From NCBI RefSeq assembly GCF_913054185.1, contig NZ_CAJXIV010000008.1:1-64000 (forward strand): a DNA stretch of 64,000 nt, given 5' to 3'. The notes below the pieces were generated by a model. That model was not told the DNA's origin. It saw only the letters and a list, made by a program, of their open reading frames with translations, and did no database searches. A program made the translations under genes and the position numbers. Shown here in pieces: positions 1 to 13,400 of the stretch (the first letter of the stretch is position 1; each line of letters starts with the position of its first letter). Source of the stretch: an uncultured Shimia sp. (GTDB lineage: Bacteria; Pseudomonadota; Alphaproteobacteria; Rhodobacterales; Rhodobacteraceae).

Positions 1-2757
1 CGCAAGACCACCTGCTACATGTGCGCCTGCCGCTGCGGCATCAACGTGCACATGAAAGACGGCAAAGTGGCGTACATCGAGGGCAATCGCGACCACCCGG
101 TCAACAAAGGGGTGCTCTGTGCCAAAGGCTCCGCTGGCATCATGCAGGTCAACGCGCCGTCACGACTCAAAAAACCGCTCAAACGGGTCGGCCCGCGTGG
201 CTCGGGGGAATATGAGGAAATCAGCTGGGAAGAGGCAATCAGCACCGCCGTGGGCTGGCTCACCGAGTTGCACGAAACCGCGCCACACAAATTGGCCTTC
301 TTCACCGGCCGCGACCAATCCCAAAGTTTCACCAGCTTCTGGGCGCAACACTTCGGCACGCCAAACTATGCCGCGCACGGTGGCTTCTGCTCGGTCAACA
401 TGGCCGCCGCAGGCATCTACACCATGGGCGGCGCTTTTTGGGAATTTGGCCAACCGGATTGGGATCACACCAAACTCTTCATGATCTTTGGTGTGGCTGA
501 AGATCACGACAGCAACCCGATCAAAGCGGGCATTGGAAAAATCAAAGCCAATGGGGCAAAAGTCATCGGCGTGAACCCCGTCCGCTCAGGCTACAACGCT
601 GTGGCCGATGAATGGGTTGGCATCACGCCGGGCACCGATGGGCTCTTCATCCTCGCGCTGATCCACGAGTTGATGAAGGCAGGCAAGATCGACCTGCACT
701 ACCTCGCGCAGTACACCAATGCCGCCGTGTTGGTGGACGCCAAAACCGGCCTCCTGCTGCGCGACGACGATGGCAAACAGCTGGTGATTGACCGCAAGAC
801 CGGTAAGCCCGCGCCGTTTGACCAAAAAGGCGTGCGCCCAGATCTCTCCGCCACCCACCGCCAGGCTGGCACAACCCACCGCACCGTGATGCACCTGATG
901 GCCGAGAAATATCTCGATCCACAATACGCGCCGGAAAACGTCGCAGAGAAAACCGGCATCTCCGCGCAGAAAATCAAAACCATCGCCGCAGAGCTCGCCC
1001 GCGTCGCCTTTGACGAAGCCTTTGAGCTGGATCAGGAATGGACCGATTTCCGCGGCGAAACCCACAAAACCATGACAGGCCGCCCGGTCAGCTTCCACGC
1101 AATGCGTGGCATCTCCGCCCACTCCAACGGCTTCCAGACCTGCCGCGCCCTACATGTGCTGCAAATCCTGCTGGGCACGGTCGAAGTCCCCGGCGGCTTC
1201 CGGTTTAAGCCGCCCTACCCCAAGCCGGTTGAGGCACATCCAACGCCACACGGCGTCGGTCGCCCCGGCAAACCGCTTGCCGGTCCGCACCTCGGTTTCC
1301 CCCGAGGCCCCGAAGACCTGCAAATTGCCGAAGATGGCACCGCCTGTCGCATCGACAAAGCTTTCACATGGGAAAATCCCATGTCCGTGCACGGCCTGAT
1401 GCATATGGTGATCTCCAACGCTCACGCCCAAGATCCGTACCCCATCGACACGCTGTTCATGTACATGGCCAACATGTCCTGGAACTCCAGCATGAACACC
1501 TCCGGTGTGATCAAGATGCTGACCGACCGCAATGACGAAGGCGGCTACCGCATCCCGCGCATCATCTACTCCGATGCCTACAGCTCAGAAATGGTGGCCT
1601 ACGCCGACCTTATTCTGCCGGACACCACCTATCTGGAGCGCCACGACTGTATCTCTCTGCTGGATCGTCCAATCTGCGAAGCTGACGGTGCCGCGGATGC
1701 CATCCGCTGGCCCGTGGTGGAGCCAGATCGCGACGTGCGCGGCTTTCAATCGGTGCTGATTGAGCTTGGCGCCCGCATTGGCCTGCCCGGTTTTCTTAAC
1801 GAGGACGGCACGCCAAAATGGAAAGATTACGCTGACTACATCGTGAACCACGAACGCCGCCCCGGCGTCGGCCCCCTGGCAGGGTTCCGCGGGGAAGATG
1901 GCGACCAATTTGGACGTGGCACGGTGAACCCGGAACAATTGGACAAATACATCGAGAACGGCGGCTTCGCGATTGAACACGTGCCAGACGCCGCGCGCTA
2001 CATGAAGCCTTGGAACCAAGATTACCAAGACTGGGCGGTGAAAATCGGCCTGTTTGATGCGCCGCAGCCTTTCTTGTTCCAACTCTATGTAGAACCCATG
2101 CGCAAATTCCAGCGCGCCGCCGAAGGTCACGGAGATATCCAACCGCCGGATCATTTGCGCGACCGCCTCAAGCAGGTCATGGACCCGCTGCCCATCTGGT
2201 ATGCGCCGCTGGAAGACAGCAGTGTCGATCCGGATGAGTTTGACGTGCACGCCCTCACCCAACGGCCGATGGCGATGTATCACAGCTGGGGCACCCAAAA
2301 TGCCTGGCTGCGTCAGCTGCACGGTGAGAACCCGCTTTATCTCCCAACCAAGCTTTGGGAAAAACACGGCTTCACCGAAGGCGACTGGGCGCGTGTGACG
2401 TCAGTTCATGGCGAGATCACTGTGCCAGTGGCCCATCAGGCCGCGCTCAACGAGAACACCGTCTGGACCTGGAACGCCATTGGCAAACGCAAAGGCGCTT
2501 GGGCTTTGTCCGAAGACGCGCCGGAGAGCAACAAAGGCTTCCTGCTCAATCACCTGATCCATGAGCTGCTACCGCCCAAAGGCGACGGCCTTCGTTGGGC
2601 CAATTCAGACCCGATCACGGGGCAAGCCGCATGGTTTGATCTGCGCGTGAAGATCGAGAAGGCCGAGGCCCAAAGCGAAAGCCAACCAGCCCTTGATCCC
2701 ATCAAGTCACCGGTCCCTCAGGGTCCGGATCATCTGGAATGGAAGGTGGGTAAATGA
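1..2757 (+). CDS. soeA: SoeA-type molybdopterin oxidoreductase (sulfite dehydrogenase catalytic subunit), 5' end outside window
   Basis: The reading frame is open from base 1, so the true start lies upstream. The first visible residues carry the N-terminal [4Fe-4S] motif, with Cys at 5, 8, 12 and 40 of the visible protein, followed by bis-MGD-binding oxidoreductase domains. Cys130 in GGFCSVN sits where the molybdenum ligand is expected. The C-terminal third has the dinucleotide-binding fold seen in the DMSO reductase family. SoeA oxidises sulfite to sulfate on the cytoplasmic side and passes electrons through SoeB to the quinone-linked SoeC. The genes for an Fe-S subunit and a DmsC-like anchor follow directly, which favours SoeA over soluble assimilatory enzymes. 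A tetrathionate or polysulfide reductase-like role is the main alternative. Confidence 0.8.
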   Translation, partial: RKTTCYMCACRCGINVHMKDGKVAYIEGNRDHPVNKGVLCAKGSAGIMQVNAPSRLKKPLKRVGPRGSGEYEEISWEEAISTAVGWLTELHETAPHKLAFFTGRDQSQSFTSFWAQHFGTPNYAAHGGFCSVNMAAAGIYTMGGAFWEFGQPDWDHTKLFMIFGVAEDHDSNPIKAGIGKIKANGAKVIGVNPVRSGYNAVADEWVGITPGTDGLFILALIHELMKAGKIDLHYLAQYTNAAVLVDAKTGLLLRDDDGKQLVIDRKTGKPAPFDQKGVRPDLSATHRQAGTTHRTVMHLMAEKYLDPQYAPENVAEKTGISAQKIKTIAAELARVAFDEAFELDQEWTDFRGETHKTMTGRPVSFHAMRGISAHSNGFQTCRALHVLQILLGTVEVPGGFRFKPPYPKPVEAHPTPHGVGRPGKPLAGPHLGFPRGPEDLQIAEDGTACRIDKAFTWENPMSVHGLMHMVISNAHAQDPYPIDTLFMYMANMSWNSSMNTSGVIKMLTDRNDEGGYRIPRIIYSDAYSSEMVAYADLILPDTTYLERHDCISLLDRPICEADGAADAIRWPVVEPDRDVRGFQSVLIELGARIGLPGFLNEDGTPKWKDYADYIVNHERRPGVGPLAGFRGEDGDQFGRGTVNPEQLDKYIENGGFAIEHVPDAARYMKPWNQDYQDWAVKIGLFDAPQPFLFQLYVEPMRKFQRAAEGHGDIQPPDHLRDRLKQVMDPLPIWYAPLEDSSVDPDEFDVHALTQRPMAMYHSWGTQNAWLRQLHGENPLYLPTKLWEKHGFTEGDWARVTSVHGEITVPVAHQAALNENTVWTWNAIGKRKGAWALSEDAPESNKGFLLNHLIHELLPPKGDGLRWANSDPITGQAAWFDLRVKIEKAEAQSESQPALDPIKSPVPQGPDHLEWKVGK

Positions 2758-2786
2758 GACACCAAAACCTCAAAATACGCACCTCC

Positions 2787-2819
2787 GCGATACAGTCGCA
2801 ATACAGACGCAATACCGAC
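2787..2819 (+). repeat. Three tandem 11-bp repeats (consensus GCRATACNGAC)
   Basis: Three head-to-tail 11-mers (gcgatacagtc, gcaatacagac, gcaataccgac) fill the gap between soeA and soeB and end 8 bases before the soeB start. The period is close to one helical turn. Near-identical arrays lie at 51659 and, inverted, at 25299. The function is unknown. Confidence 0.75.
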
Positions 2820-2827
2820 GGGGCAAA

Positions 2828-3589
2828 ATGACCGATTTACCCACCAAAACCGACCGCACCCTCGGCCTTGTGATTGATCTGGACACCTGCGTCGGCTGCC
2901 ACGCCTGTGTGATCTCCTGCAAAGGCTGGAACACCGAAAACTACGGTGCGCCTCTGTCAGATCAACGTCCCTATGGCACCGAGCCCATGGGCACGTTTTT
3001 GAACCGCGTACACAGCTATGAGGTCCAGCCAGAGCAAGGTAATGCGCAAACCGTGCACTTTCCAAAGTCTTGTTTGCATTGCGAAAATGCCCCCTGCGTC
3101 ACAGTTTGCCCCACTGGTGCAAGTTACAAGCGTGTTGAAGACGGGATTGTGCTGGTCAACGAAGACCACTGCATCGGCTGCGGCCTCTGCGCCTGGGCCT
3201 GCCCTTATGGTGCCCGCGAGTTGGACCAGGCCGAAGGCGTGATGAAGAAATGCACCCTCTGTGTGGACCGTATCTACAACGAAAACCTGCCCAAAGAGGA
3301 CCAGATCCCCTCCTGCGTCCGCACCTGCCCCGCCGGCGCCAGACACTTTGGCGACCTGTCTGATCCAAATTCAGATGTCAGCCAACTTGTTGAATCCAGA
3401 GGCGGATTTGACCTCATGCCAGAAATGGGCACACTTCCTGTGAACAAATACCTCCCACCGCGTCTCAAAGATTCTTGGGATGATCAGAGCCTTCTGGCCC
3501 CGCTTCTGGAACCCGTCGCTGAGGAACCAAAAGGCTTCCTTGGCTGGCTCGATAACGCCCTCGACAAACTGCCCGGAGGGACCGCCTGA
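2828..3589 (+). CDS. soeB: SoeB-type four-cluster ferredoxin subunit of sulfite dehydrogenase
   Basis: A 253-residue electron-transfer subunit of the DmsB/NrfC/PhsB family. Four cysteine groups for [4Fe-4S] clusters are visible: CVGCHACVISC at residues 21-31, then CLHCENAPCVTVC, CIGCGLCAWAC and a split CTLC...CVRTC group. The frame is open further upstream, but the ATG at 2828 is preferred: it follows GACGGGGC and begins a typical family N-terminus (MTDLPTKTDRTLG), while the upstream extension runs through the 11-bp repeats. It should relay electrons from SoeA to SoeC on the cytoplasmic face. Its stop overlaps the soeC start by one base, so the two are probably translationally coupled. Confidence 0.85.
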   Translation: MTDLPTKTDRTLGLVIDLDTCVGCHACVISCKGWNTENYGAPLSDQRPYGTEPMGTFLNRVHSYEVQPEQGNAQTVHFPKSCLHCENAPCVTVCPTGASYKRVEDGIVLVNEDHCIGCGLCAWACPYGARELDQAEGVMKKCTLCVDRIYNENLPKEDQIPSCVRTCPAGARHFGDLSDPNSDVSQLVESRGGFDLMPEMGTLPVNKYLPPRLKDSWDDQSLLAPLLEPVAEEPKGFLGWLDNALDKLPGGTA

Positions 3590-4461
3590 TGCATCCAGCC
3601 CCATCTGTCATCGTCTTCTCGACCCTCTCAGGCCTCGGTTTCGGTCTGCTGTTCTGGCTTGGCATAGATGCCAATCCCCCAACCGGTCTTGCAGCTTTCA
3701 TATTCTTTGCAATCGCTTTCGCGCTTGCAGTGGGTGGATTGCTTTCGTCCACCTTTCACCTAGGCCACCCCGAACGCGCCTGGCGCGCCCTCAGTCAATG
3801 GCGCAGCAGTTGGCTGTCCCGCGAAGGCGTCAGTGCCATCCTCGCCCTGCTCTGCATGGGCATCTACGCAATTGATCTTATCTTCCTGCAGATACACGCA
3901 ACCGCCTTGGGCTTGATCGGCGCTGCTTTGTCGCTGTTCACGGTCTTCACAACTTCGATGATCTATGCCCAACTCGACACCGTGCCACGCTGGAAAACCC
4001 CTTTGACACCAGCACTTTACCTGAGCTTTTCTTTGGCTGGTGGTGCGCTACTTTCAGGTCGTGTAAACTTTGCAATCCTACTGTTGGTGATCGCCGCCAT
4101 TTGCCAGTTTATCTGGTGGCAGCGCGGCGACGTGGCCCTGTCTGACAGCGGCACCGATCTCGGCACTGCCACTGGCTTGGGCGAGCGCGGCACCGTGCGC
4201 TCCATGGCGCATCCCCACACCGCACCGAACTATCTGGTGAAAGAGTTCATCTTCGTCATTGGCCGAAAACACGCACAAAAACTGCGCCGGATTGCCTTTG
4301 GCCTCACCTTTGTGCTGCCCATCATCTGCCTTCTGCTGCCGTTCAGCCACGTCTTGGCAATCATCGCAGTGTTCAGCCACATTGCAGGGGTTGCAACCTC
4401 GCGCTGGCTGTTCTTTGCAGAGGCCGAGCACGTCGTCGGCCTCTACTATGGTGCGCGCTGA
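3589..4461 (+). CDS. soeC: SoeC-type membrane anchor (DmsC/NrfD-like) of sulfite dehydrogenase
   Basis: A 290-residue polytopic protein of the DmsC anchor family, with about eight hydrophobic segments starting at residue 5. Such subunits hold the Mo/Fe-S dimer at the membrane and exchange electrons with quinone. The segment FHLGHPERAWRAL near residues 50-62 and the SQWRSSWLSREG stretch after it are typical of DmsC-like anchors. The start overlaps the soeB stop (TGATG). The stop codon directly abuts the stop codon of the convergent gene at 4462, leaving no room for a terminator between them. Confidence 0.83.
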   Translation: MHPAPSVIVFSTLSGLGFGLLFWLGIDANPPTGLAAFIFFAIAFALAVGGLLSSTFHLGHPERAWRALSQWRSSWLSREGVSAILALLCMGIYAIDLIFLQIHATALGLIGAALSLFTVFTTSMIYAQLDTVPRWKTPLTPALYLSFSLAGGALLSGRVNFAILLLVIAAICQFIWWQRGDVALSDSGTDLGTATGLGERGTVRSMAHPHTAPNYLVKEFIFVIGRKHAQKLRRIAFGLTFVLPIICLLLPFSHVLAIIAVFSHIAGVATSRWLFFAEAEHVVGLYYGAR

Positions 4462-5112
4462 TTACCGCGCCTTCCCGCGCCAGGTGTCCAGCCAGGCGCG
4501 GAACCGCCCCCGCTTTTCTGCCAGATTGTCCCCGGCGGCTTCAAAGCTGTCGCCCATGTCCTCAAGCACCGGATCAATCCGTGCCTGACGGAACCGGCGC
4601 CAACGCACGTAAACCGCCCAAACAATTGCGAAAAACACCGTCAGGATCAGGATGTTCAACCACGGAATGAAACTTGCATCCGGGCTATCCACAGCTTTCA
4701 CACCCACGGCATTTGGGTAAATCGACAGGAACTCGTTGCGCCAGCCATAGTGCTTCACCGCCACCCATTTCGGCGCATCCGAACTTGATTTCAAGTCACC
4801 TGCTTCAGCCTGAAGGTTGGCAGTATCAAACTTGAAATACGGCGGCCAACCTGCGCTGGTATCCTCGTTGCGATAGACCATCACGCGATCATTGGGCATC
4901 TTCGTCTCGATAAAGAACACGTCACGATTGACAGTTGTCTCGGCATTGCCCGCGTCGGATTTGGCCCAGAAAATCGAGTTCTCACCAAAATCGATCCGCT
5001 TTTCATAGGTATCTGTAACCCGCACCACATCATGCTGCGGCAGCGTGTAGTGAAAGAACGCCGCCACAAAAAGCCAGAACAGCGTCCAGAAACCCCATTT
5101 CACATAGACCAT
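4462..5112 (-). CDS. DUF1523 family membrane protein
   Basis: A 216-residue protein with a membrane segment at residues 5-24 followed by LPQHDVVRVTDTYEKRIDFGEN, an extracytoplasmic domain, a second membrane segment near residues 150-172 and a basic cytoplasmic tail. The opening and the RVTDTYEKR stretch match my knowledge of DUF1523, a family of unknown function common in Rhodobacteraceae. It is the last gene of the minus-strand run that contains the AAA+ ATPase, 12 bases after the preceding gene. No catalytic motif is visible. Confidence 0.75.
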   Translation of the reverse strand: MVYVKWGFWTLFWLFVAAFFHYTLPQHDVVRVTDTYEKRIDFGENSIFWAKSDAGNAETTVNRDVFFIETKMPNDRVMVYRNEDTSAGWPPYFKFDTANLQAEAGDLKSSSDAPKWVAVKHYGWRNEFLSIYPNAVGVKAVDSPDASFIPWLNILILTVFFAIVWAVYVRWRRFRQARIDPVLEDMGDSFEAAGDNLAEKRGRFRAWLDTWRGKAR

Positions 5113-5124
5113 TCTTCGGTCCCC

Positions 5125-5391
5125 CTAGTGGAAATTCATAAAGTAGATCAAGGCGATCACGATGGTCACAGGGATGATATAGACACCCCAAATCAATTTG
5201 CGACGCAAAGAGCCGTCATAGTCCTGCAAACCATGTTCAATAAAGGCATCTCGATCGCCGGTCATGCCTTCGCGATCCCATTCTGCTTCCAGCTTGTCGC
5301 GGCGTTTGGAGCGCGAATACAGCGACAGACAAACATAGACAATGGTGAGCACCACAAAGCCCACAACCGACAATCTCGCCAATGCAAACAT
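5125..5391 (-). CDS. Small two-helix membrane protein of unknown function
   Basis: An 88-residue protein with an N-terminal hydrophobic segment (residues 4-24), a highly charged middle (RSKRRDKLEAEWDRE) and a second hydrophobic segment at the C-terminus, giving a hairpin topology. It lies 11 bases after the DUF6638 gene and 12 before the DUF1523 gene on the same strand. Upstream, AGGAGGTAGG provides a good ribosome-binding site. I do not recognise a named family; its constant company with membrane partners suggests a complex subunit. Confidence 0.7.
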   Translation of the reverse strand: MFALARLSVVGFVVLTIVYVCLSLYSRSKRRDKLEAEWDREGMTGDRDAFIEHGLQDYDGSLRRKLIWGVYIIPVTIVIALIYFMNFH

Positions 5392-5402
5392 AGCCTACCT
5401 CC

Positions 5403-6758
5403 TCACCGTCCCGATTTGACTGCGCCCCATGGCCCAACCCGCGATATCATATCCTCAGATACCTTGCGCGTCACACGCGGCATCTCCAGCGGCGCGTCAA
5501 AGCCAAACAACGCCTCACGCGCGCCCGCTTTGTCGACCTGATACTCCCGCTCCAAGAAATCCGCCACAAAGCTCTTTTTGGTCTCCGACCAGCCTTGATA
5601 GAGATGATAGAACACCTCCTTGTGGCAAATAAACAGCTGCCGGATGTCCTTTGGCGCCAGTTCCGACAACAACATGTTCACCAGATCGCGCTGGTCCGTG
5701 TCTGTAGCCCGCAACGTGTAAAAATAAGCCGGATGATCGCTGGTGATCTTCGGCCACTTGCCGTCGCTCTCGGCCCAATCCACCATTTTGCGCAACTCAT
5801 GGTATTCAGGCGGCAGCTGCTCCGCATGGTTTCGTGCCAAACGACGAATGTCACTGCGTGTAGCGCCTGTTAGATCGACACCCGCCTCTTGCGCGGCATC
5901 CACAACGATAAAATCCATTTTCTGGCGCAATATTGCTGTACCGTCCACGCCGCGCGCTTTCACAATTGGCTCTACCAGGTCGTTGTAGTCCAGAAACTTC
6001 GCAATCTGGTTTCGGTCCTTAAAATCAAACATGTATTTGATCGGCAACTTGCCCAGCTCGGCTTTGTCCCCCGCCGTGATCACGGCTGGATGTGACAGGC
6101 CACGGAACAGGTACACCCCACCAAAATGCGCCGTCCAATAATCCTGCTGATCGAACTCCATGTGCTTGAGCGTCACCGGATTGCGCGTCACATCGCCGGT
6201 GCGTTTGGCCAGGGTGATCATGTCGGCAATCAGCACATCATCAAACCAGCCGTCTTCTTCCTGCTTGAACCGATCCGCCAGTTGGCCGAGCTTTGCCGCA
6301 TCGCGCAACGTGCCCTCAGTGGTGTCCGCCTCAATCGTGACCTTGCGAATGTCCATCAGCTTGCTTGGCTGGCTCACCGAAAACACCGAGTTCACCATTT
6401 CGCCCGCCACCGCATCCCGCGCAGTCAGGGCAAAGAGCTGTGGCTCGTTTTCCTCAATGAAATGCCGCAGAATATCGCGACTGGTGGAGAACTTGATGTT
6501 CAAAAGCGGTGCGGATTTCTGATCTGTGGTCAGCAGGATGAACTGCCGGTTGCAGCCCCCGTGGTTGAGGTAGAGATGATCGTTCAGCTCATCGCCGATC
6601 TCAGGGCTGTAGCCCGAAATATCGATGTGAAAATCGGTGAGAGTGGTGGTCTTACCGGTCAAATGTTTGAGCGCACGATTGTAGCGCTCCACCAGCACCG
6701 GCGAGGCCACCTCAATCAGATTGCCAAACATCAAGCCGCGTTGGATCAATCTATGCAT
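5403..6758 (-). CDS. DUF6638 family protein
   Basis: A 451-residue soluble protein starting MHRLIQRGLMFGNLIEV, which I recognise as the DUF6638 family; no activity is known to me. It has no signal peptide or membrane segment. ISGYSPEIGDEL near residues 47-58 and NHGGCNRQFILLTTDQ near residues 64-80 are conserved-looking blocks. The start overlaps the end of the upstream small membrane-protein gene by 13 bases and is preceded by GAGGATG, so translation is probably coupled. It belongs to the AAA+ ATPase gene run. Confidence 0.72.
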   Translation of the reverse strand: MHRLIQRGLMFGNLIEVASPVLVERYNRALKHLTGKTTTLTDFHIDISGYSPEIGDELNDHLYLNHGGCNRQFILLTTDQKSAPLLNIKFSTSRDILRHFIEENEPQLFALTARDAVAGEMVNSVFSVSQPSKLMDIRKVTIEADTTEGTLRDAAKLGQLADRFKQEEDGWFDDVLIADMITLAKRTGDVTRNPVTLKHMEFDQQDYWTAHFGGVYLFRGLSHPAVITAGDKAELGKLPIKYMFDFKDRNQIAKFLDYNDLVEPIVKARGVDGTAILRQKMDFIVVDAAQEAGVDLTGATRSDIRRLARNHAEQLPPEYHELRKMVDWAESDGKWPKITSDHPAYFYTLRATDTDQRDLVNMLLSELAPKDIRQLFICHKEVFYHLYQGWSETKKSFVADFLEREYQVDKAGAREALFGFDAPLEMPRVTRKVSEDMISRVGPWGAVKSGR

Positions 6759-7108
6759 TTTTCATCCTCGTCTAACCGTTTTTGTCTTCCCAATGCCAAA
6801 GCCAAGATTAGCGCTGGAACAAAGAAAACCGATATCATCTTCATCTGAAAAAGCGCGTACTTCCAAAATTGATGGACATCTGCGTAACCATCAAAGGTGT
6901 CAGTCAACGACGCAAAGCACAACGCAAGCACGATTCCGACTGCAAGAACAAGGACAGCTCCAACGCCAAGTTGCTTAAGCGCAGCGGGAAGAAATGACGT
7001 GTTCGATTTCATTGTCCGTCTAGAAGCTTCTTGCGCGTTACCACACATCGCGAACGCCAACGCAACACCTAAGAACAAAGGTAAAAACAAGGCGATCAGT
7101 CCGATCAT
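6746..7108 (-). CDS. Small polytopic membrane protein of unknown function
   Basis: A 120-residue protein with three hydrophobic segments: residues 2-21, about 45-70, and about 88-107, ending in a charged tail (RQKRLDEDEK). Codon use looks more AT-rich than most neighbours. It overlaps the DUF6638 start by 13 bases and follows the preceding gene after a 75-base gap that holds a GC-rich hairpin. No family is recognised. It is probably a membrane partner of the DUF6638/AAA+ cluster. Confidence 0.65.
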   Translation of the reverse strand: MIGLIALFLPLFLGVALAFAMCGNAQEASRRTMKSNTSFLPAALKQLGVGAVLVLAVGIVLALCFASLTDTFDGYADVHQFWKYALFQMKMISVFFVPALILALALGRQKRLDEDEKCID

Positions 7109-7140
7109 AGGACACCTTCATTCAGCAATCTCATCCTCAA

Positions 7141-7162
7141 CGCGGCCTTAAGCCGGGCCGCG
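7141..7162 (-). other. GC-rich hairpin in the one sizeable gap of the AAA+ operon
   Basis: CGCGGCC and GGCCGCG form a 7-bp stem with an 8-base loop in the 75-base gap between the genes at 7184 and 6746. There is no T-tract, so this may be an attenuator or RNA-processing site rather than a full terminator. Confidence 0.4.
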
Positions 7163-7183
7163 CCCCGCTGCACCGACAGGTTC

Positions 7184-7441
7184 TCAAGCATCATCTTTAC
7201 GCCGCCCCATAACCCGGCGACAAAACTGTACCGCGTCGCCCGTGATGGTCTTCACAACCGGAAAACTCAGCTTCAGCCACATCGCGCAAAACATTAAGAC
7301 AACAACGATTGGCTCCGGTGTATGCCCCATGACCTTGTCCGCAAACACCAGCAATAGGCAGAGCAAGATGAGGCTTAAGACGGCGTCCAGAAAAAGCGTT
7401 CTGAGCCGAGTGCCAATCCCTTTGGAATACTGAGACGACAT
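7184..7441 (-). CDS. Small membrane protein of unknown function
   Basis: An 85-residue protein starting MSSQYSKGIGTRL with two hydrophobic segments (about residues 13-34 and 43-62) and a very basic C-terminus. The start at 7441 follows GGTGAGGATG and lies two bases after the stop of the gene upstream, which supports this start over a longer reading into the neighbouring gene. Two small charged-tail membrane proteins in a row, directly downstream of the AAA+ ATPase gene, suggest membrane docking partners. No family recognised. Confidence 0.65.
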   Translation of the reverse strand: MSSQYSKGIGTRLRTLFLDAVLSLILLCLLLVFADKVMGHTPEPIVVVLMFCAMWLKLSFPVVKTITGDAVQFCRRVMGRRKDDA

Positions 7442-7443
7442 CC

Positions 7444-7824
7444 TCACCGCTCCCCCGCCGCAATATCCTGCCCCCGCCGCGCTTCCACGCCCTGCGCATG
7501 ACCAAACCACACCAACCCCAAAATCGGCACCCAGACAATTGTTGTCATCGCGGCCAATCTCAGGTGCATTTGAAGCGGCGGTCCGGTGCGCCCGTCACTG
7601 CCAAACGCCAAGGCATGGGCGCCGCGCAAGTGAACAAGCAGCACCGACAGACAGCAGGCAACAGCAAACAGAACCAAAGCTGACAGCAAAATGCCCATAG
7701 CAACTTTGCCATGCGATCGTGTCTCCCGATCGACCAGCACACGCGGCAACAGCATCGCCAGAATAGCCAGAACCGCCAGCGGCGCACCCGTATTCCAAAA
7801 CCCAACGCTGTCGATCACAAACAC
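7444..7824 (-). CDS. Membrane protein coupled to the AAA+ ATPase gene
   Basis: A 126-residue protein with three hydrophobic segments (roughly residues 13-30, 42-66 and 89-108). It starts with GTG that shares its first base with the TAG stop of the AAA+ ATPase gene, so translation is tightly coupled. The C-terminus ends two bases before the next gene start. No family recognised; position suggests it works with the ATPase at the membrane. Confidence 0.68.
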   Translation of the reverse strand: MFVIDSVGFWNTGAPLAVLAILAMLLPRVLVDRETRSHGKVAMGILLSALVLFAVACCLSVLLVHLRGAHALAFGSDGRTGPPLQMHLRLAAMTTIVWVPILGLVWFGHAQGVEARRGQDIAAGER

Positions 7825-9761
7825 TAGGCTTTGCCCTCCAAATAGCGTCGCTTCGCCGCCTCGGACCGCTGCATGTCACGCACCATATTGGAGATCGCGA
7901 CCTCATCGGATTTGTCGGCATAGCGGAACTCGCTGTCCGCATAGCGGTTGATTTCCTGCACCACCATGTCCGTGGTGATCGGCACCCGCAGCTCGCCAAT
8001 CATTGCGGCCTTTGTGTCGTAGTCTTTCTGCAAGAACAGTTCCGGCTGCTCCATCCATTCATCTGGAAGTTCAAAATCCATCGCCCGCACCTTTACGGCG
8101 TCCGTGATGTTCTTGATCGCCCGTCCCGTGAAACGCGGATCGGCCTCTTGGATGGCCTTCAAATAGGTGCCCATCTTGGCAATGTTGTCCAGCTCGCCAA
8201 CCTGTCCATGCACCTTATCAAAGACGTTAAGCAACCCCGGCTCATGGGGCCGCGAGTGGCTCTCAAAACTCGCCGCCACAGCTTTCTGAATGGCCTGCGC
8301 CTCAAACAGCGTGTGATCTCCCAACGCAATGTCGTGGTTCTTGCCCATCAACAGCGCAAGGATGTCGATGTAATCCTCTTGCGTTTGCGGCCCGTCCACC
8401 AGGAAACGGGCACCGGCCCGCTGGCGCAGCGCATCGTCTACGTTTTCCGGGTAATTGGAAAACATACCAAAGGTACAGTTCCCACGCACCACGGTATTGG
8501 CGCCCGCAAAGGCCTCCATAAAGACAGCCGTGACCTCTTGTTGGCCCGCCGAACTTTGTCGATCGCCACGTTTGCCGGCTATCTGATCGATGTCGTCAAT
8601 CGTGCCAAAGCCAATCACTTGCGGATCAAGCACGTTTTGCACAAACGCCTTGGCGTTCTGCCCCGACTTGCCCTGATAGCTGTCGATATTATCGATGCCA
8701 AAGTTCTGATAGCGGAAGGCATAGCCCGCCACCTGACAATAGTCGTTGATCAGACCCGCCATCATCTGAATAAGCGTGGTTTTCCCGGTGCCCGGCGCGC
8801 CGTCGCCCATGAAGGTAAAGATAAACCCGCCCAGCTCCGCAAACGGATTGAGCCGCCGGTTAAAGTCATAAGCCATCAGCATCTTGGCCAGCTTCATCGC
8901 CTGATATTTGGCGATGTGGTTGCCCACAACTTCGTTGGGTTTTTTGAATTGCATGGTCAGCGTGCTGCCTTTGGCCGCCCGCGCAGGTGTAAACCCGTTG
9001 ATGGTCAGCTCATCCGCTTCCACCTTCCAACTTGCGCCCACAAAGGCCCCCAGGTGCGGCGCGTTCTGTGCCCGCAACGTGACCTTCTCCATCAACTGCT
9101 CGGCAAAAGCACAGACACAGGCAACCAGCCGGTCCTCATCCGAAACCAGCGCAGCAATGTCCTGATCCAGCTCCCACAACGCGCCATGCAAAGCCAGCGA
9201 CGCATTGTCGGTCAAAATCTCTTCTACTTCACCAACCTCAACCTGCGTCTCACCCAACAAGGGCGCCAATAGAAACGACGTCGCATTGGCAAAGACATAA
9301 GCAACTGCCAAAGCCTCCGCCGCCAAAAGCTCGGAAAACGTTGTTTTCTTATCTGCGCCCAGCGCGCCCGCCAAATTATCCCGCTTCAAATCCGCCAAAC
9401 CGGACGCTTCGGCGAAGTTCTCTCCGACCGCCAAAGCAATCGCCAAGGCCCGCCGCATCCCGTGCAACACATTGGCCTGCACCGGCGACACCAGCGGGTC
9501 TTCCCCGCCCGCGCCTTCAATGCGCTCCACCAGATGCACACCTTCGGGCCGCGCGGTCGAGCGTGTCACCAACCCCGGCGTGGTGCTGCGAAACCGTCGC
9601 CGCGTGCCAATTCCACTGGAACGTTCTGGTGCCGCCACAGGGTCTTTCCCCTTGGCAATCCGCGGCGTGTGATCAAAGCCATCCAGCATTCCCACAGCCG
9701 CGTCATAATGCTTGCGAATATCCTCTTCGCGCAGCTCCATCTGATCACTTGTCAAGCTCAT
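7824..9761 (-). CDS. AAA+ family ATPase of an uncharacterised membrane-linked cluster
   Basis: A 645-residue protein whose C-terminal half is a classical AAA module: Walker A GAPGTGKTT at about residues 321-329, Walker B ending in DDID at about 388-391, sensor-1-like SNYPENVDDALRQR at about 435-447 with candidate arginine-finger residues after it, and a sensor-2-like FTGRAIKNI further on. The N-terminal half (about 300 residues) matches nothing I know and may bind substrate or adaptor. The start at 9761 (MSLTSDQMEL) is preferred to one 27 codons upstream. Small membrane proteins lie downstream and a coiled-coil protein upstream on the same strand. The substrate is unknown; remodelling of a membrane complex is inference. 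Confidence 0.78.
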   Translation of the reverse strand: MSLTSDQMELREEDIRKHYDAAVGMLDGFDHTPRIAKGKDPVAAPERSSGIGTRRRFRSTTPGLVTRSTARPEGVHLVERIEGAGGEDPLVSPVQANVLHGMRRALAIALAVGENFAEASGLADLKRDNLAGALGADKKTTFSELLAAEALAVAYVFANATSFLLAPLLGETQVEVGEVEEILTDNASLALHGALWELDQDIAALVSDEDRLVACVCAFAEQLMEKVTLRAQNAPHLGAFVGASWKVEADELTINGFTPARAAKGSTLTMQFKKPNEVVGNHIAKYQAMKLAKMLMAYDFNRRLNPFAELGGFIFTFMGDGAPGTGKTTLIQMMAGLINDYCQVAGYAFRYQNFGIDNIDSYQGKSGQNAKAFVQNVLDPQVIGFGTIDDIDQIAGKRGDRQSSAGQQEVTAVFMEAFAGANTVVRGNCTFGMFSNYPENVDDALRQRAGARFLVDGPQTQEDYIDILALLMGKNHDIALGDHTLFEAQAIQKAVAASFESHSRPHEPGLLNVFDKVHGQVGELDNIAKMGTYLKAIQEADPRFTGRAIKNITDAVKVRAMDFELPDEWMEQPELFLQKDYDTKAAMIGELRVPITTDMVVQEINRYADSEFRYADKSDEVAISNMVRDMQRSEAAKRRYLEGKA

Positions 9762-9780
9762 CTTAAAGTCCTCGCCAACA

Positions 9781-10662
9781 CTATGAATTTCTCCGCTCAA
9801 AGGCGGCGCGATAGAGAATTTCCAACGCGTCGGTTTGTTCAATCAAATCACTGGGCTGAAGGGACAAACGATAAACTTGCCATTTTGAGTTATACTCAAG
9901 GGTATCAAAACCAGCCTCATCAACGAGTTCGTCAAACTCGTCGCTTCTCGGAAGCTTTATCTCCAAATTGAAACGCTGCTTCTTGGGTCTAAAGGTCACA
10001 AAATTGAAAGCCTGATTGTTTTTAACTAAGCCGATGTAGTGCTTGTTGAAATTCAACTGAAGCGAAGGCTCGAGCTTCTGAAGTTCCGACAGAACCTTAT
10101 CGGCCAGCTTGACAATTTGGGGGGCCGACTTCTTTTCCCAATATTGGCGATCCGTAGGTGCCGAAAGTGCGTCCTCGTCGTCGTCAATCGGGCCCCTGGA
10201 AACAGCGACCAACACTTTCGTAAACAATAGCGAAATCTCGCCATCTATTTCAAAAGCAGACACTTGGATGGCTATTAATGGAATGGTTCCATTGAAAAGC
10301 GAGATCACGTTCAAAAACCGGCTGGTAACCTCTTCTGCGACGATCACGGCACAATGTTCAAATTGTGGATATCGTTTCCGCTCAATATCCCAGTACTCCA
10401 CGGTTCTAATGATATGAGATTCATCTGTGGAACCGAGCTGGAGCTCTACCTCGTAACGTTGAGACCGTTCTCTATCTTCAAGCAGCAAGTCCAACCGACC
10501 TGCCCGCGGCTGTCGCCTTTCGCGATCTCGCACGGTCACTTCGCCTAGGCCCAATATGGCCGGATCATTAGCAATGATTTCTTGGAGCCATTGTTCTGAA
10601 AACTCAGGGTGATTTCTTAAATTCAATTTTTTTAAAGGTCGATATTTCATTTTTGTTTCCAC
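9781..10662 (-). CDS. PD-(D/E)XK nuclease-like protein, probable insertion in the AAA+ operon
   Basis: A 293-residue protein. Near residues 30-95 it shows an order typical of DUF91/NucS-like PD-(D/E)XK folds: a helix with WLQEIIANDPAILGLGE, then GRLDLLLED, then YEVELQLGSTDES. The usual Glu-x-Lys is replaced by Glu-Val-Glu-Leu-Gln, so activity is uncertain. The C-terminal half resembles nothing I recognise. Base composition is visibly more AT-rich than the flanking genes, and the gene sits between two cluster members with gaps of 41 and 19 bases, which suggests late arrival. The ATG at 10662 or one four codons later could be the start. It may be a defence or repair nuclease. Confidence 0.65.
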   Translation of the reverse strand: METKMKYRPLKKLNLRNHPEFSEQWLQEIIANDPAILGLGEVTVRDRERRQPRAGRLDLLLEDRERSQRYEVELQLGSTDESHIIRTVEYWDIERKRYPQFEHCAVIVAEEVTSRFLNVISLFNGTIPLIAIQVSAFEIDGEISLLFTKVLVAVSRGPIDDDEDALSAPTDRQYWEKKSAPQIVKLADKVLSELQKLEPSLQLNFNKHYIGLVKNNQAFNFVTFRPKKQRFNLEIKLPRSDEFDELVDEAGFDTLEYNSKWQVYRLSLQPSDLIEQTDALEILYRAAFERRNS

Positions 10663-10703
10663 ACTAAAACACTGTTACCGTTGGCTTGGCTTGAAAGACC
10701 AAA

Positions 10704-11825
10704 TCAATACCTCAGCACCCGCCCCTGCGGGCTCACCACATATTTCGTCACGCTGCCAAACCCCGGTGGGTTCAATTCCTCAAGCGCCTGAAACGGCCGT
10801 TGCGGCAGGATGATTGCGCGCTCCATGCTGGTCGCGCCGGTGTCGACACCTCGGCCAGAAAACGGATCCAGTGCAAACACCTCACGTTCCACCGTACCAA
10901 ACCAGCCAGAGCGTTCATCCTGCACACGCTCGCTCACCAAATCCTCGGTGGTCCAGGCCAGTGTCCAATCCTCGCCGTCCGGCGCCCGTGCGGCCTCCAG
11001 AACTTCGCGGATGGGCCCGGTCTGCTTTGTGTAAGCGCTCGAATACATCGGACCGACATGAATGCGCCGCAAACGCTTGGGGTGCAGGTCGTCAAAACTC
11101 TCATCAAAGCCTTTGGCGATCGTCACCAGTTTCAGGCCCCCAACCGCCTGCCCCATCAGATGCGCTTGCACCTCCGGCCAGCGCCGCTCATCTTTGGGCA
11201 GCGCCCGTCGCCCGGTGTCCTCAAGATCCATGAGGTAGATCGTCGGCAAGTTCACTTGGCTGTCATACACCGCCCAATGCAGCAGATATTTGCGCCGCCG
11301 CTCCGACAGATTGCCCTGCCAGCGCACCTCTGGATGGTTCTGCGCCCAGAACAGCTCTCCCTTCAGCAACTCCTCATAATAAAGCCGCTGGCTCAGCGCG
11401 AATTGCAACTTGGTCGGGATCTCCTGATCGCCAATAATACCGCGCAGCATGTCATCCTTGAGCTGCTCTGCACTTGGCATATTGCGCAAATGGCTTTCGG
11501 CCTGCTGCGCATCATTGGCCATGACCAACAACTCGTTGAACACCGGAAAGCCACTCTCCACCGCGTCCATAGAAAGACTGCCAAAGAACTGCCCAGTTTG
11601 GCGGCCCACCAGCAGGTATTTCATGCTCAGCGCTTTGAACGTATAGCCAATCGACGCCAGATAGCGCGTGAGGATTTCCACCTCATTTTGTCCAATTGCA
11701 CCTTCAGCCGCCCGCGCCGCCGCCACCTGCGTCAGATGCTCGGTGATGCGTTCAAATTTTTGGAAATACCGCCGCGACGCGCGAGTCTCCATCAGAGCGG
11801 TGTGGTCTTTGGTTGTGTCGTTCAT
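10704..11825 (-). CDS. Uncharacterised 373-aa protein of the AAA+ cluster
   Basis: A soluble 373-residue protein with an N-terminal helical region (MNDTTKDHTALMETRASRR) and no signal peptide, membrane segment or catalytic motif that I recognise. The ATG at 11825 follows GGAGGAGG and overlaps the stop of the small upstream gene in an ATGA arrangement, which fixes the start. The C-terminal part is rich in beta-type sequence (VTKYVVSPQGRVLRY). It is co-transcribed with the coiled-coil and AAA+ genes, but separated from the ATPase gene by the AT-rich nuclease-like gene. Confidence 0.68.
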   Translation of the reverse strand: MNDTTKDHTALMETRASRRYFQKFERITEHLTQVAAARAAEGAIGQNEVEILTRYLASIGYTFKALSMKYLLVGRQTGQFFGSLSMDAVESGFPVFNELLVMANDAQQAESHLRNMPSAEQLKDDMLRGIIGDQEIPTKLQFALSQRLYYEELLKGELFWAQNHPEVRWQGNLSERRRKYLLHWAVYDSQVNLPTIYLMDLEDTGRRALPKDERRWPEVQAHLMGQAVGGLKLVTIAKGFDESFDDLHPKRLRRIHVGPMYSSAYTKQTGPIREVLEAARAPDGEDWTLAWTTEDLVSERVQDERSGWFGTVEREVFALDPFSGRGVDTGATSMERAIILPQRPFQALEELNPPGFGSVTKYVVSPQGRVLRY

Positions 11826-12007
11826 TTTCCTCCTCCGGGACACGCAATGTCACGGGTCGCGCCCGACTCCGCCCCCCAGGGTGGGCGTGATTTTGCAAAG
11901 TCAGCCACGCTTCCACCCCGCAGGAATTGGGTCAATGGCTGCGCCAGCTCGACAGCCGCCCTCGTGCTCGGGCGCGCTCCAACGGTTTTAAGAATCTCAG
12001 CTTTCAC
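11822..12007 (-). CDS. Small 61-aa protein linking two cluster genes
   Basis: A 61-residue frame starting with GTG (MKAEILKTVG) that overlaps the end of the upstream membrane-protein gene by 11 bases and whose TGA stop overlaps the ATG of the downstream gene by four bases (ATGA). Such perfect nesting between two real genes, without a gap, suggests translation through all three. The product has no recognisable motif. It could alternatively be a non-functional translated linker that keeps ribosomes on the message. Confidence 0.45.
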   Translation of the reverse strand: MKAEILKTVGARPSTRAAVELAQPLTQFLRGGSVADFAKSRPPWGAESGATRDIACPGGGK

Positions 12008-12311
12008 CAGAACTCTTCCCTCGCTTCAAAATCCACCGCCTCACAAGACTGCTCACAAAAATTATCGCAACCGCAGCTCCGGCAAAAACGCCCCAACCGA
12101 GCATGTCATGCTCATACTCCGGGAAGCTTTGTGTTGGCTCGGCCAACCGCCACACCAGAAATCCGGCAAGAAACAGTACGGTGGCACTCGCTGTCCAGAG
12201 TTTGTCCGCGCGGCCCAAAAACAACGCCGCAATAGCATCCGCAACACACAGCGCAGATTTGCCTGCTGCGCGGGCAAAATTTCCTAGGTAGCTCTGCGAC
12301 CGCTTCATCAA
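11997..12311 (-). CDS. Two-helix membrane protein of the AAA+ cluster
   Basis: A 104-residue protein with a basic N-terminus (MMKRSQSYLGNFARAAGK), two hydrophobic segments (about residues 40-57 and 70-88) and a basic C-terminal tail, so both ends probably face the cytoplasm. It follows the coiled-coil gene by 12 bases and overlaps the next small gene. No named family recognised. Confidence 0.65.
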   Translation of the reverse strand: MMKRSQSYLGNFARAAGKSALCVADAIAALFLGRADKLWTASATVLFLAGFLVWRLAEPTQSFPEYEHDMLGWGVFAGAAVAIIFVSSLVRRWILKRGKSSGES

Positions 12312-12323
12312 CTCAAAGAGGCA

Positions 12324-13400
12324 TCACGCCCCATAAAGGTTCTTATCGTGCTTCTCGACAATCTTCTGGAACCGGCGCGCAAAGCGTTCATCCGCCTTGG
12401 CCTTCGCCTCAAGCACATCGCGGGCAAACACCATGTGTTCCTCATGAGCTTCCATCATGTCAGCCATCTTTTGATTGGTCGCCGTGCCAATCGCCGCCAT
12501 TGACGCCTGCGCTTCTTTGTCTGTCTCCACACCAATTTCGTTGATGCGGTGGGCCACATCCTGCTGCTGCGCGGTCTTCAAAGATTTGGTCAGCGCATCA
12601 TAGAGCACCACGCGCTGCTTGGTGTCTGTTTGCAGCTTGTTGATCAGCACCATCTGCGTCGCCGCCTGATTTTGCAGCGAGTCGACCCAGGTCTTGCCCT
12701 TCTCGATATAGCGCTCAAGCGTCTGGCTCTGGGCAAGTTTCACCTGCTCCTGCTGCACCAGCTCGTTATAGGATTTGTTCAAATCCGCCAGCTCGGTTTC
12801 CAGCTTGGTGCGCGCCGCCGCGTCCTGCTCCACAGCAATCTTGTTCTCGACTTCGATGATCTTGGGATCCATGCCCATGATCTCAGCGCGCAGACTCTCC
12901 AGCTCGCCAACTGTGAACTCACGCTCATCTAGCGTCTCTGTCAGGTTTTGCTCGACTTTGACCTTTTGCTCTTCGAGCACGGACAATTGGCTTTCCAAAA
13001 GTTTGGTGATCACATCTGATTTGGCAATCAGGTCCTGCAGTTTGTCGTCAATATTGGCAGTTTTGATCCGCTCGGCCCGCATGGAGTCAGACTTGCCGCG
13101 ACTAAACACACCTACAAAGCTCTCCCAGCCGGTCTTGTCCCGCATCTGGTCAAAGTCTTTGGAGAAGGCGGATGTCACGTCATCCAGCCCCATAATCAGC
13201 TCAGCTATGTTGGAGTTCATCACGTCTGTATGCGCGTGCACATCGTCCAGCGTTGCGTTCTCGATATCGATTGCAATGTCGTCGCCGGTTTTCATCTTCG
13301 CCCGTGCCGCATCAATGCGCCCGGTCAGCTCGGCAATCTTATTTTGTGCTTCGGCCACCTGCGCTTGAGACTCACGCACTTGGGTTTCAAAATTTGCCAT
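12324..13400 (-). CDS. Long coiled-coil protein heading the AAA+ cluster
   Basis: A 358-residue, strongly charged, almost entirely helical protein with heptad-like stretches from residue 5 to about 330 (for example ESQAQVAEAQNKIAELTGRI and VEQNLTETLDEREFTVGEL). It has no signal peptide. The overall look resembles TelA/KlaA (toxic anion resistance) proteins or PspA-like scaffolds, but I cannot confirm either family. It is the first gene of the run, with a 197-base leader region upstream, so the operon promoter probably lies at 13401-13545. A filament or membrane scaffold acted on by the AAA+ ATPase is a reasonable hypothesis. Confidence 0.68.
   Translation of the reverse strand: MANFETQVRESQAQVAEAQNKIAELTGRIDAARAKMKTGDDIAIDIENATLDDVHAHTDVMNSNIAELIMGLDDVTSAFSKDFDQMRDKTGWESFVGVFSRGKSDSMRAERIKTANIDDKLQDLIAKSDVITKLLESQLSVLEEQKVKVEQNLTETLDEREFTVGELESLRAEIMGMDPKIIEVENKIAVEQDAAARTKLETELADLNKSYNELVQQEQVKLAQSQTLERYIEKGKTWVDSLQNQAATQMVLINKLQTDTKQRVVLYDALTKSLKTAQQQDVAHRINEIGVETDKEAQASMAAIGTATNQKMADMMEAHEEHMVFARDVLEAKAKADERFARRFQKIVEKHDKNLYGA

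Follow-up and report, generated by a model that had tools for sequence, protein, structure and literature searches.

A closely spaced run of genes on the minus strand of a contig from an uncultured Shimia species (Rhodobacteraceae; NZ_CAJXIV010000008.1, whose first 64,000 nucleotides (nt) are called the window here) raises the question of which of its products belong together and what they might do. The earlier note on this DNA had described twelve genes on one strand at positions 4462-13400 and proposed that all of them, at least six membrane proteins included, act as one machine. The gene calls of the window confirmed the closely spaced run in one direction, but its count is 11. The 358-amino-acid (aa) coiled-coil protein (CC358), the 645-aa AAA ATPase, DUF6638, DUF1523 and several small membrane proteins were all present (Table 1). 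The single machine made of all genes was not supported, as five of the 11 are lineage-specific gap fillers. The conserved unit consists of four soluble proteins (CC358, p373, AAA and DUF6638) and two membrane proteins (TMc88 and DUF1523), and the operon probably encodes a machine that uses ATP to work on the coiled-coil protein at the inner membrane.

Conservation was examined in the best 80 of 562 relatives from a scan of named genomes, whose titles point to Rhodobacteraceae, metagenome-assembled genomes labelled to class at the deepest, and two Halomonas; six of these named loci were cut by contig ends, leaving 74 uncut ones. The order CC358-p373-AAA-DUF6638-TMc88-DUF1523, uninterrupted by any other recognised gene, was found in 62 of the 80, and CC358, p373, AAA, DUF6638 and DUF1523 occurred all together in 72 of the 74 uncut loci, all but L089 and L106. 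In L008, which is closely related (AAA 93%), the operon is compact and consists of six genes, lacking TM104, DUF5655, TM126, TM87 and TM120, and the nearest named relatives (L042 and L043, AAA 97% and 96%) carry just TM126 of these five genes, which were therefore placed outside the core. An M24 peptidase was also considered as a member and rejected, being located at varied distances in 37 of the 80 loci and in none of L008-L011.

Beyond this set, we collected 19 diverse loci, all picked via AAA, which range from Rhodobacteraceae to Vibrio and include records from Sinorhizobium, Shinella and Rhizobium and a megaplasmid of Vibrio. All 19 have the core genes CC358-p373-AAA-DUF6638 in this same order. 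What follows it is a lineage-specific membrane tail, either TMc88 plus DUF1523 or DUF2333: the downstream partner is DUF1523 in Rhodobacteraceae and in three loci from other families (L011, L145 and L146), and DUF2333 in four loci of family f160 (L141-L144), in Sinorhizobium (L151) and in Shinella (L154). Hydropathy revealed hydrophobic transmembrane (TM)-like segments in each of TMc88, DUF1523 and DUF2333.

The cohesion of the set across genomes, a check suggested together with the earlier proposal, was borne out. In a sample of 398 Pseudomonadota genomes, AAA was detected in 26 and DUF6638 in exactly the same 26 (and in none of 14 control genomes), while CC358 occurred in those 26 plus, in divergent form, in four genomes without any AAA or DUF6638 match. 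Among 198 Rhodobacteraceae genomes, AAA was found in 83 and CC358 in 84, of which 81 had both, two AAA only and three CC358 only; of the five genomes with one gene only, four have a completeness of 71-86%, and in the fifth (92% complete) the AAA match lies at a contig end. A sample of the class gave AAA in seven of 289 genomes, two of the seven being weak. In the window's genus AAA was present in 23 of 25 genomes, with one match each; one of the two negative genomes (88% complete) retains CC358, and the other (99% complete) has neither gene. The whole six-gene operon was also observed in two Halomonas loci (L081 and L090), with AAA proteins 75-76% identical to that of the window, and the operon has thus been transferred between classes, into Gammaproteobacteria. 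No AAA relative was found in phage records (tblastn, E up to 1e-5).

The AAA protein contains PF00004 as the sole Pfam domain found (46.7 bits, curated cut-off 21.2), next to an N-terminal region of about 300 residues without family. Pfam thus recognises it as a classic AAA protein, whereas the catalytic Glu (DE) of this class is absent. All 99 orthologues share Walker A, the YQGKS pore-loop position, sensor 1 (FGMF[ST]N), ALRQR and F[TS]GR. Walker B, for which the window sequence was also aligned to an i-AAA protease, reads DD in all 99 and DE in none. The previously claimed intact Walker A/B and sensor motifs are therefore correct for Walker A and for both sensors, and the patterns of the pore loop and arginine finger are intact as well, but the claim needs correction for Walker B, where Asp replaces Glu. 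An Asp at the catalytic Glu position can affect ATP hydrolysis, and here it suggests that hydrolysis may be slow or regulated. The nearest solved relatives by profile were an i-AAA protease, Cdc48-like proteins and proteasomal ATPases, all weak (best E 2.6e-5).

A possible target of this ATPase is indicated by loci that lack it. A CC358 homologue that neighbours DUF2333 in a stretch lacking p373, AAA and DUF6638 was found on R. leguminosarum plasmid pSK03 (L172) and in four alphaproteobacterial genomes of family f160 (L194-L197), the latter having no AAA or DUF6638 match genome-wide. The R. leguminosarum site corresponds to that in S. meliloti: an ArsR gene, a choline transporter and a thymidine kinase lie before it, and formate-tetrahydrofolate ligase, extensin and a TonB-dependent receptor lie behind it, past several additional genes. 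We aligned 19 AAA-linked and the five AAA-less coiled-coil proteins and defined as conserved any position kept in at least 18 of the 19. Columns 267-291 contain 13 conserved positions, of which each AAA-less protein retains one; four of these proteins have gaps in 22 of the 25 columns, and the fifth has gaps in 11. Elsewhere the AAA-less proteins retain 25-67% of the conserved columns (4-7 of 15 in 45-115, 4-6 of 9 in 116-190, 8-10 of 20 in 191-266 and 4-8 of 16 in 292-358). The pattern SL[KR]TA.QQ..AH..N..G was found in all 96 distinct AAA-linked proteins (77 from named loci and the 19 aligned ones, window included), and the corresponding motif SLKTAxQQxxAHxxNxxG in none of the five AAA-less ones. 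Because this motif is absent together with p373-AAA-DUF6638 in five coiled-coil loci, we infer that it is where the AAA module engages CC358.

AlphaFold2 predicted a long hairpin for CC358 (residues 117-190 and 194-287), with a predicted local distance difference test (pLDDT) score of 68 for the whole model; in this isolated chain pLDDT falls below 50 at residues 279-313, which comprise part of the motif and the residues following it. Matches of CC358 to syntaxin/Sso1 (Z about 14), tripartite toxins and a designed bundle were set aside as generic helical-bundle matches.

Starting from the observed gene order, co-occurrence, three-gene co-absence with the motif missing alongside, ATPase motifs and gap variability, we tentatively favour a reading in which CC358 is a membrane-partnered coiled-coil assembly whose C-terminal motif allows the AAA protein, together with p373 and DUF6638, to remodel it. 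The helical hairpin of CC358 would work, presumably at the inner membrane, with a lineage-specific partner, namely TMc88 and DUF1523 in Rhodobacteraceae and DUF2333 in Sinorhizobium, Shinella and relatives. The removable p373-AAA-DUF6638 module would act on CC358, possibly by direct physical contact: a putatively hexameric AAA ring would engage SLKTAxQQxxAHxxNxxG, with p373 and DUF6638 as obligate cofactors, and its aromatic pore loop may exert a pull on CC358 assemblies or take them apart, similar to the recycling of helical substrates by Vps4 or NSF. The cellular role would probably be envelope maintenance or stress, and the gaps of the operon would separately serve as slots for accessory genes.

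A role in membrane stress is hinted at, thinly and circumstantially, by two links. First, a PspA gene (PF04012 above cut-off) and a gene for a YiaAB-type small membrane protein (above cut-off in L145, below it in L113) lie within about 1 kb of the operon at L145:5099-6115 and L113:5370-6360. Second, the S. meliloti AAA gene is probably SMc02733, by a gene count from shmR that uses the locus tag which we take to be that of choX. According to passages of the respective papers, shmR is SMc02726 (PMC8343143) and a ChvI-bound fragment is located in SMc02733 (PMC3687685).

Several observations weigh against the proposed remodelling of CC358. The AAA-less proteins are only 17-25% identical to the window CC358 and strongly diverged overall, and since four of the five are 55-88% mutually identical, they may represent two or three independent events; the R. 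leguminosarum case is drawn from the record of plasmid pSK03 alone. The quality of the CC358 model is modest, and structurally it matches nothing more specific than generic helical bundles. One locus (L089) is missing DUF6638, TMc88 and DUF1523, and in a metagenome-assembled genome (L106) an AAA orthologue (75% identity) stands alone, with no partners in 21.9 kb, which is either a misassembly or a true orphan. DUF2333 was not found in the stretches of L155 (Rhizobium) or L152 (Vibrio), nor was DUF1523 in those of L152, L153 and L155. The PspA neighbourhood was seen in just two of all loci scanned, and the ChvI link depends on a partly presumed numbering.

We then examined the genes outside the core. 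TM104, DUF5655, TM126, TM87 and TM120 occupy, as fillers, gaps that are hypervariable and rich in AT and whose genes are mostly co-oriented. The AAA-DUF6638 gap is at least 250 nt long in 61 of the 74 uncut loci, and 13 of the 74 have no filler-sized gap. In 57 such gaps with an open reading frame (ORF) of at least 60 aa, the longest ORF is co-oriented in 48, and the GC content is below that of the core in 48 (mean -6.8 points); the corresponding numbers for 28 CC358-p373 gaps are 25 and 26. Coupling was counted on plus-strand ORFs only, in 51 slots having a co-oriented ORF of at least 90 aa: the first ORF starts -10 to +15 nt from the AAA stop in 28, the last one ends at most 15 nt from the DUF6638 start in 40, and both couplings occur in 22. 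ORF length, strand, GC and stop/start coupling served as criteria for slot genes. A codon-usage score was also tried for calling them coding and rejected, as it gave a clearly positive ORF in only 10 gaps; the low score probably results from the foreign composition of the slots. The 132 gap ORFs fell into 100 BLAST clusters, and a TM-like segment was present in 51 of 80 AAA-DUF6638 slot ORFs of at least 60 aa. In the window, the DUF5655 gene has a GC of 46% versus 54-59% in the four core genes and looks like a recent insert. One family of slot proteins recurs, at L042:12512-13375 and in 10 other loci; its members are about 282 aa long, most have two TM-like segments, and by eye they resemble coiled coils.

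This variability bears on the explanation that the genes are co-inherited and co-transcribed without forming one machine, in which the client of the AAA protein may be different (for example, maturation of p373 or DUF6638) and the gap genes would be neutral passengers. Gap genes that vary by locus and the existence of a compact form would be expected in that case, and L089 and L106 illustrate that parts can be lost. On the other hand, the exact co-occurrence of AAA and DUF6638 and the co-absence of a three-gene block with one specific motif of the coiled-coil protein are difficult to explain in this way, and we consider such loose association rather unlikely.

The content of the slots raises a different explanation, that the core is an anti-phage defence system, in which AAA, p373, DUF6638 and CC358 would sense infection and the exchangeable gap genes, among them nucleases, small membrane proteins and toxin-like genes, would be effectors or hosted extra defences. 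A Pfam scan (E 0.01) covering 86 of the 132 gap ORFs identified 18 families, including DUF2971 and HATPase_c_2 (two each) and single cases of Mrr, putAbiC, PIN_10, DUF433, DUF4279, DUF4145 and others. Examples are Mrr in L110, PIN_10 with DUF433 in L049, DUF2971 in L063 and, just below cut-off, HNH in L112; beyond these 86 ORFs, slots contain Fic (L142), a DUF559 nuclease (L143, L144 and L151) and DUF5655 (window). Mrr, PIN_10/DUF433, DUF2971, HNH, putAbiC, Fic, DUF559 and DUF5655 all agree with the defence explanation, as do the co-orientation and low GC of the AAA-DUF6638 gaps, the movement of the operon to Halomonas and a weak resemblance of the AAA protein to the defence models TRIP13 (E 1.4e-4) and IetA (E 1.2e-3). 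The embedding of one defence system within the operon of another also has a precedent in T1RM/TgvAB (PMC11411939). However, the operon is nearly universal in the genus (of the two genomes without AAA, one has at least the coiled-coil gene), and its neighbours, judged by eye, look mostly metabolic and do not resemble a defence island. A filler in the AAA-DUF6638 gap is not required, because 13 of the 74 loci have no gap of filler size there, which also counts against defence. PADLOC families were no more common in slot than in flank ORFs (18 versus 26 families, 86 ORFs each), so we describe the defence flavour of the slots only qualitatively and claim no enrichment. The core proteins gave no strong PADLOC match, and for p373, DUF6638, CC358 and DUF1523 of the window nothing was found up to E 0.1. 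Defence as the function of the core is thus improbable in our opinion, although it deserves attention.

Two of these slots were also noted in passing. That of L049 (11947-13094) holds the DUF433 and PIN_10 genes, a possible toxin-antitoxin pair, and that of S. meliloti Ak57 (L151:12106-13851) holds the DUF559 endonuclease gene together with an ISRm16 insertion on the opposite strand.

The two other core proteins gave few clues to function. The predicted structure of p373 is confident (Table 1), and no Foldseek match at E 0.001 was found in PDB or a viral library. Its best structural alignments (VIA-align) are weak and below a trustworthy level (Z up to 4.7), and do not prove a new fold: urate oxidase (Z 4.7) is tied with fructose-bisphosphatase (Z 4.7), and residues 174-301, approximately, align weakly with dihydroneopterin aldolase (Z 4.2, rmsd (root mean square deviation) 2.7, 96 residues), several of the weak matches being T-fold enzymes. 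No solved chain was matched by the profiles of p373 or DUF6638 (best E 0.78 each). The idea that p373 is a paralogue of DUF6638 was rejected (hhalign probability 0.2%).

The general plan of a helical hairpin protein, a classic AAA ATPase and small membrane proteins would also be compatible with divergence from an envelope system already known, either ESCRT-III/PspA with a Vps4-like AAA protein or TelA, and operons of PspA or ESCRT proteins with AAA+ ATPases are described (PMC11237479). Against this, neither PspA_IM30, Snf7 nor MIT matched the window proteins, the AAA protein included, at the sequence level (Pfam, E up to 10), and none of the three was seen for the 19 coiled-coil members among 25 of 51 families shown. 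As regards an ESCRT-III fold, the CC358 model (pLDDT 68) gave generic helical matches only. TelA (PF05816), suggested by eye, was tested as the family of CC358 by hhalign against two TelA alignments (7 and 8 sequences). One comparison gave a probability of 0.4%; in another, the score of 13.9 was below the mean of 18.2 for 60 block-shuffled decoys, and TelA identity was rejected because shuffled CC358 profiles score higher on average. Moreover, the genome has a separate TelA gene and a PspA-like match (with one internal stop) elsewhere. We therefore regard membership in these systems as very improbable. The TelA locus of this genome (L122:444-3470) consists of a 292-aa gene that by eye is possibly XpaC-like, TelA and a gene for a 306-aa protein.

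Remodelling of CC358 by the AAA module and the accessory role of the slots could also be combined in a broader, quite unlikely version: a two-layer AAA+ system, in which the coiled-coil protein would work either alone with DUF2333 or driven by a detachable module via one motif, and the operon would at the same time be a platform on which unrelated accessory genes, translationally coupled and in several cases of defence type, dock and are exchanged, thereby wiring envelope surveillance to exchangeable effectors.

Table 1. Features of the operon in the window, with their positions and the evidence for each
Feature	Position	Strand	Evidence
CC358, 358-aa all-helical coiled-coil protein, first core gene	12324..13400	-	no Pfam match above cut-off; in 77/80 named loci
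Motif SLKTAQQQDVAHRINEIG, CC358 residues 273-290, putative AAA-module contact site	12531..12584	-	pattern in 96/96 AAA-linked coiled-coil proteins, 0/5 AAA-less homologues
TM104, lineage-specific filler between CC358 and p373, small membrane protein starting with TTG or ATG	11997..12311	-	phmmer, 0/80 loci; hydropathy
p373, second core gene, helical N-part and mixed alpha/beta C-part	10704..11825	-	no Pfam match; pLDDT 89
DUF5655 protein, AT-rich insert in p373-AAA gap	9781..10662	-	PF18899 E 2.8e-6; PADLOC PDC-S18 E 4e-7; 0/80 loci; GC 46%
Classic-type AAA ATPase, 645 aa, third core gene	7824..9761	-	PF00004 E 5.5e-12
Walker A GDGAPGTGKTT	8775..8807	-	99/99 orthologues
Pore-loop-1 position YQGKSGQ (Y362)	8658..8678	-	99/99 orthologues; pore role presumed from position
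Walker B GFGTIDDID, Asp at catalytic Glu position	8586..8612	-	DD 99/99, DE 0/99
TM126, three-TM filler, AAA-DUF6638 slot	7444..7824	-	matches in 5/80 loci; cluster of 8 slot ORFs
TM87, small membrane protein filler, AAA-DUF6638 slot	7184..7441	-	0/80 loci matched; hydropathy
TM120, three-TM filler, AAA-DUF6638 slot	6746..7108	-	match in 1/80 loci; GC 46%
DUF6638, soluble, fourth core gene	5403..6758	-	PF20343 E 5e-241
TMc88, two-TM protein, Rhodobacteraceae-type tail	5125..5391	-	71/80 loci; hydropathy
DUF1523, two TM segments around a probably periplasmic domain	4462..5112	-	PF07509 E 5e-68; 74/80 loci; hydropathy

As for annotation, Pfam named four of the 10 scanned proteins above its cut-offs (AAA, DUF5655, DUF6638 and DUF1523; TM104 was outside the set), with 800 bits for PF20343 on DUF6638 (curated cut-off 27) and 228 bits for PF07509 on DUF1523 (cut-off 23), and NCBIfam gave no match above its cut-offs for the cluster proteins. 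The surroundings of the operon, judged by eye, consist mostly of metabolic genes common to subsets of loci, such as an upstream M24 peptidase in 24 of 72. In the window, positions 19-4461 are occupied by a convergent operon whose products were labelled by eye as a molybdopterin oxidoreductase (912 aa), a 4Fe-4S protein and a DmsC-like membrane protein; similar genes lie downstream in about 11-12 of 72 loci.

The earlier note could not match the cluster to a described system, and we likewise found no published description among open-licence PMC papers. Within these papers DUF6638 is named in none found, and the titles that turned up for DUF1523 are unrelated. The component families are thus undescribed as far as such searches reach. 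This analysis defines a conserved set of four bacterial proteins that probably form a machine; two of them (CC358 and p373) have no Pfam match above cut-off, and the p373 structure, although predicted with confidence, has no significant match in PDB. The natural joint absence of the ATPase module and one motif offers a directly testable interface, and the hypervariable, often translationally coupled slots of marine Rhodobacteraceae and of rhizobia are a new place to seek defence-type genes and effectors that are small membrane proteins.

Compared with known systems, the window AAA protein has in common with the classic AAA ATPases (i-AAA protease, Cdc48 and proteasomal ATPases) the AAA module, pore loop, sensors and arginine finger, but differs from them by its familyless N-terminal region of about 300 residues, DD instead of DE, and the lack of any other Pfam domain. 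Type I restriction-modification (R-M) and BREX systems with embedded defence genes (PMC11411939) resemble the operon in carrying accessory nuclease or defence-type genes, mostly co-oriented, between core genes; in contrast to them, it has no recognised defence core, is vertically stable in the genus and shows no PADLOC enrichment. TelA with an XpaC-like partner, also present in this genome, shares with CC358 a long helical protein of about 330-400 aa; however, the profile comparison was negative relative to decoys, the partners are different and TelA is at a separate locus. In ESCRT systems the ATPase contacts the helical protein at a C-terminal segment, and the CC358 motif would be the counterpart of that segment. 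ESCRT-III/Vps4 and PspA operons (PMC11237479) likewise combine genes for a helical hairpin protein, a classic AAA ATPase and membrane proteins. The CC358 system differs from them in having no PspA, Snf7 or MIT sequence match, two extra obligate proteins (p373 and DUF6638) and the Walker B Asp; by plan, and not by sequence, such PSP/ESCRT operons with AAA ATPases are its nearest described kind.

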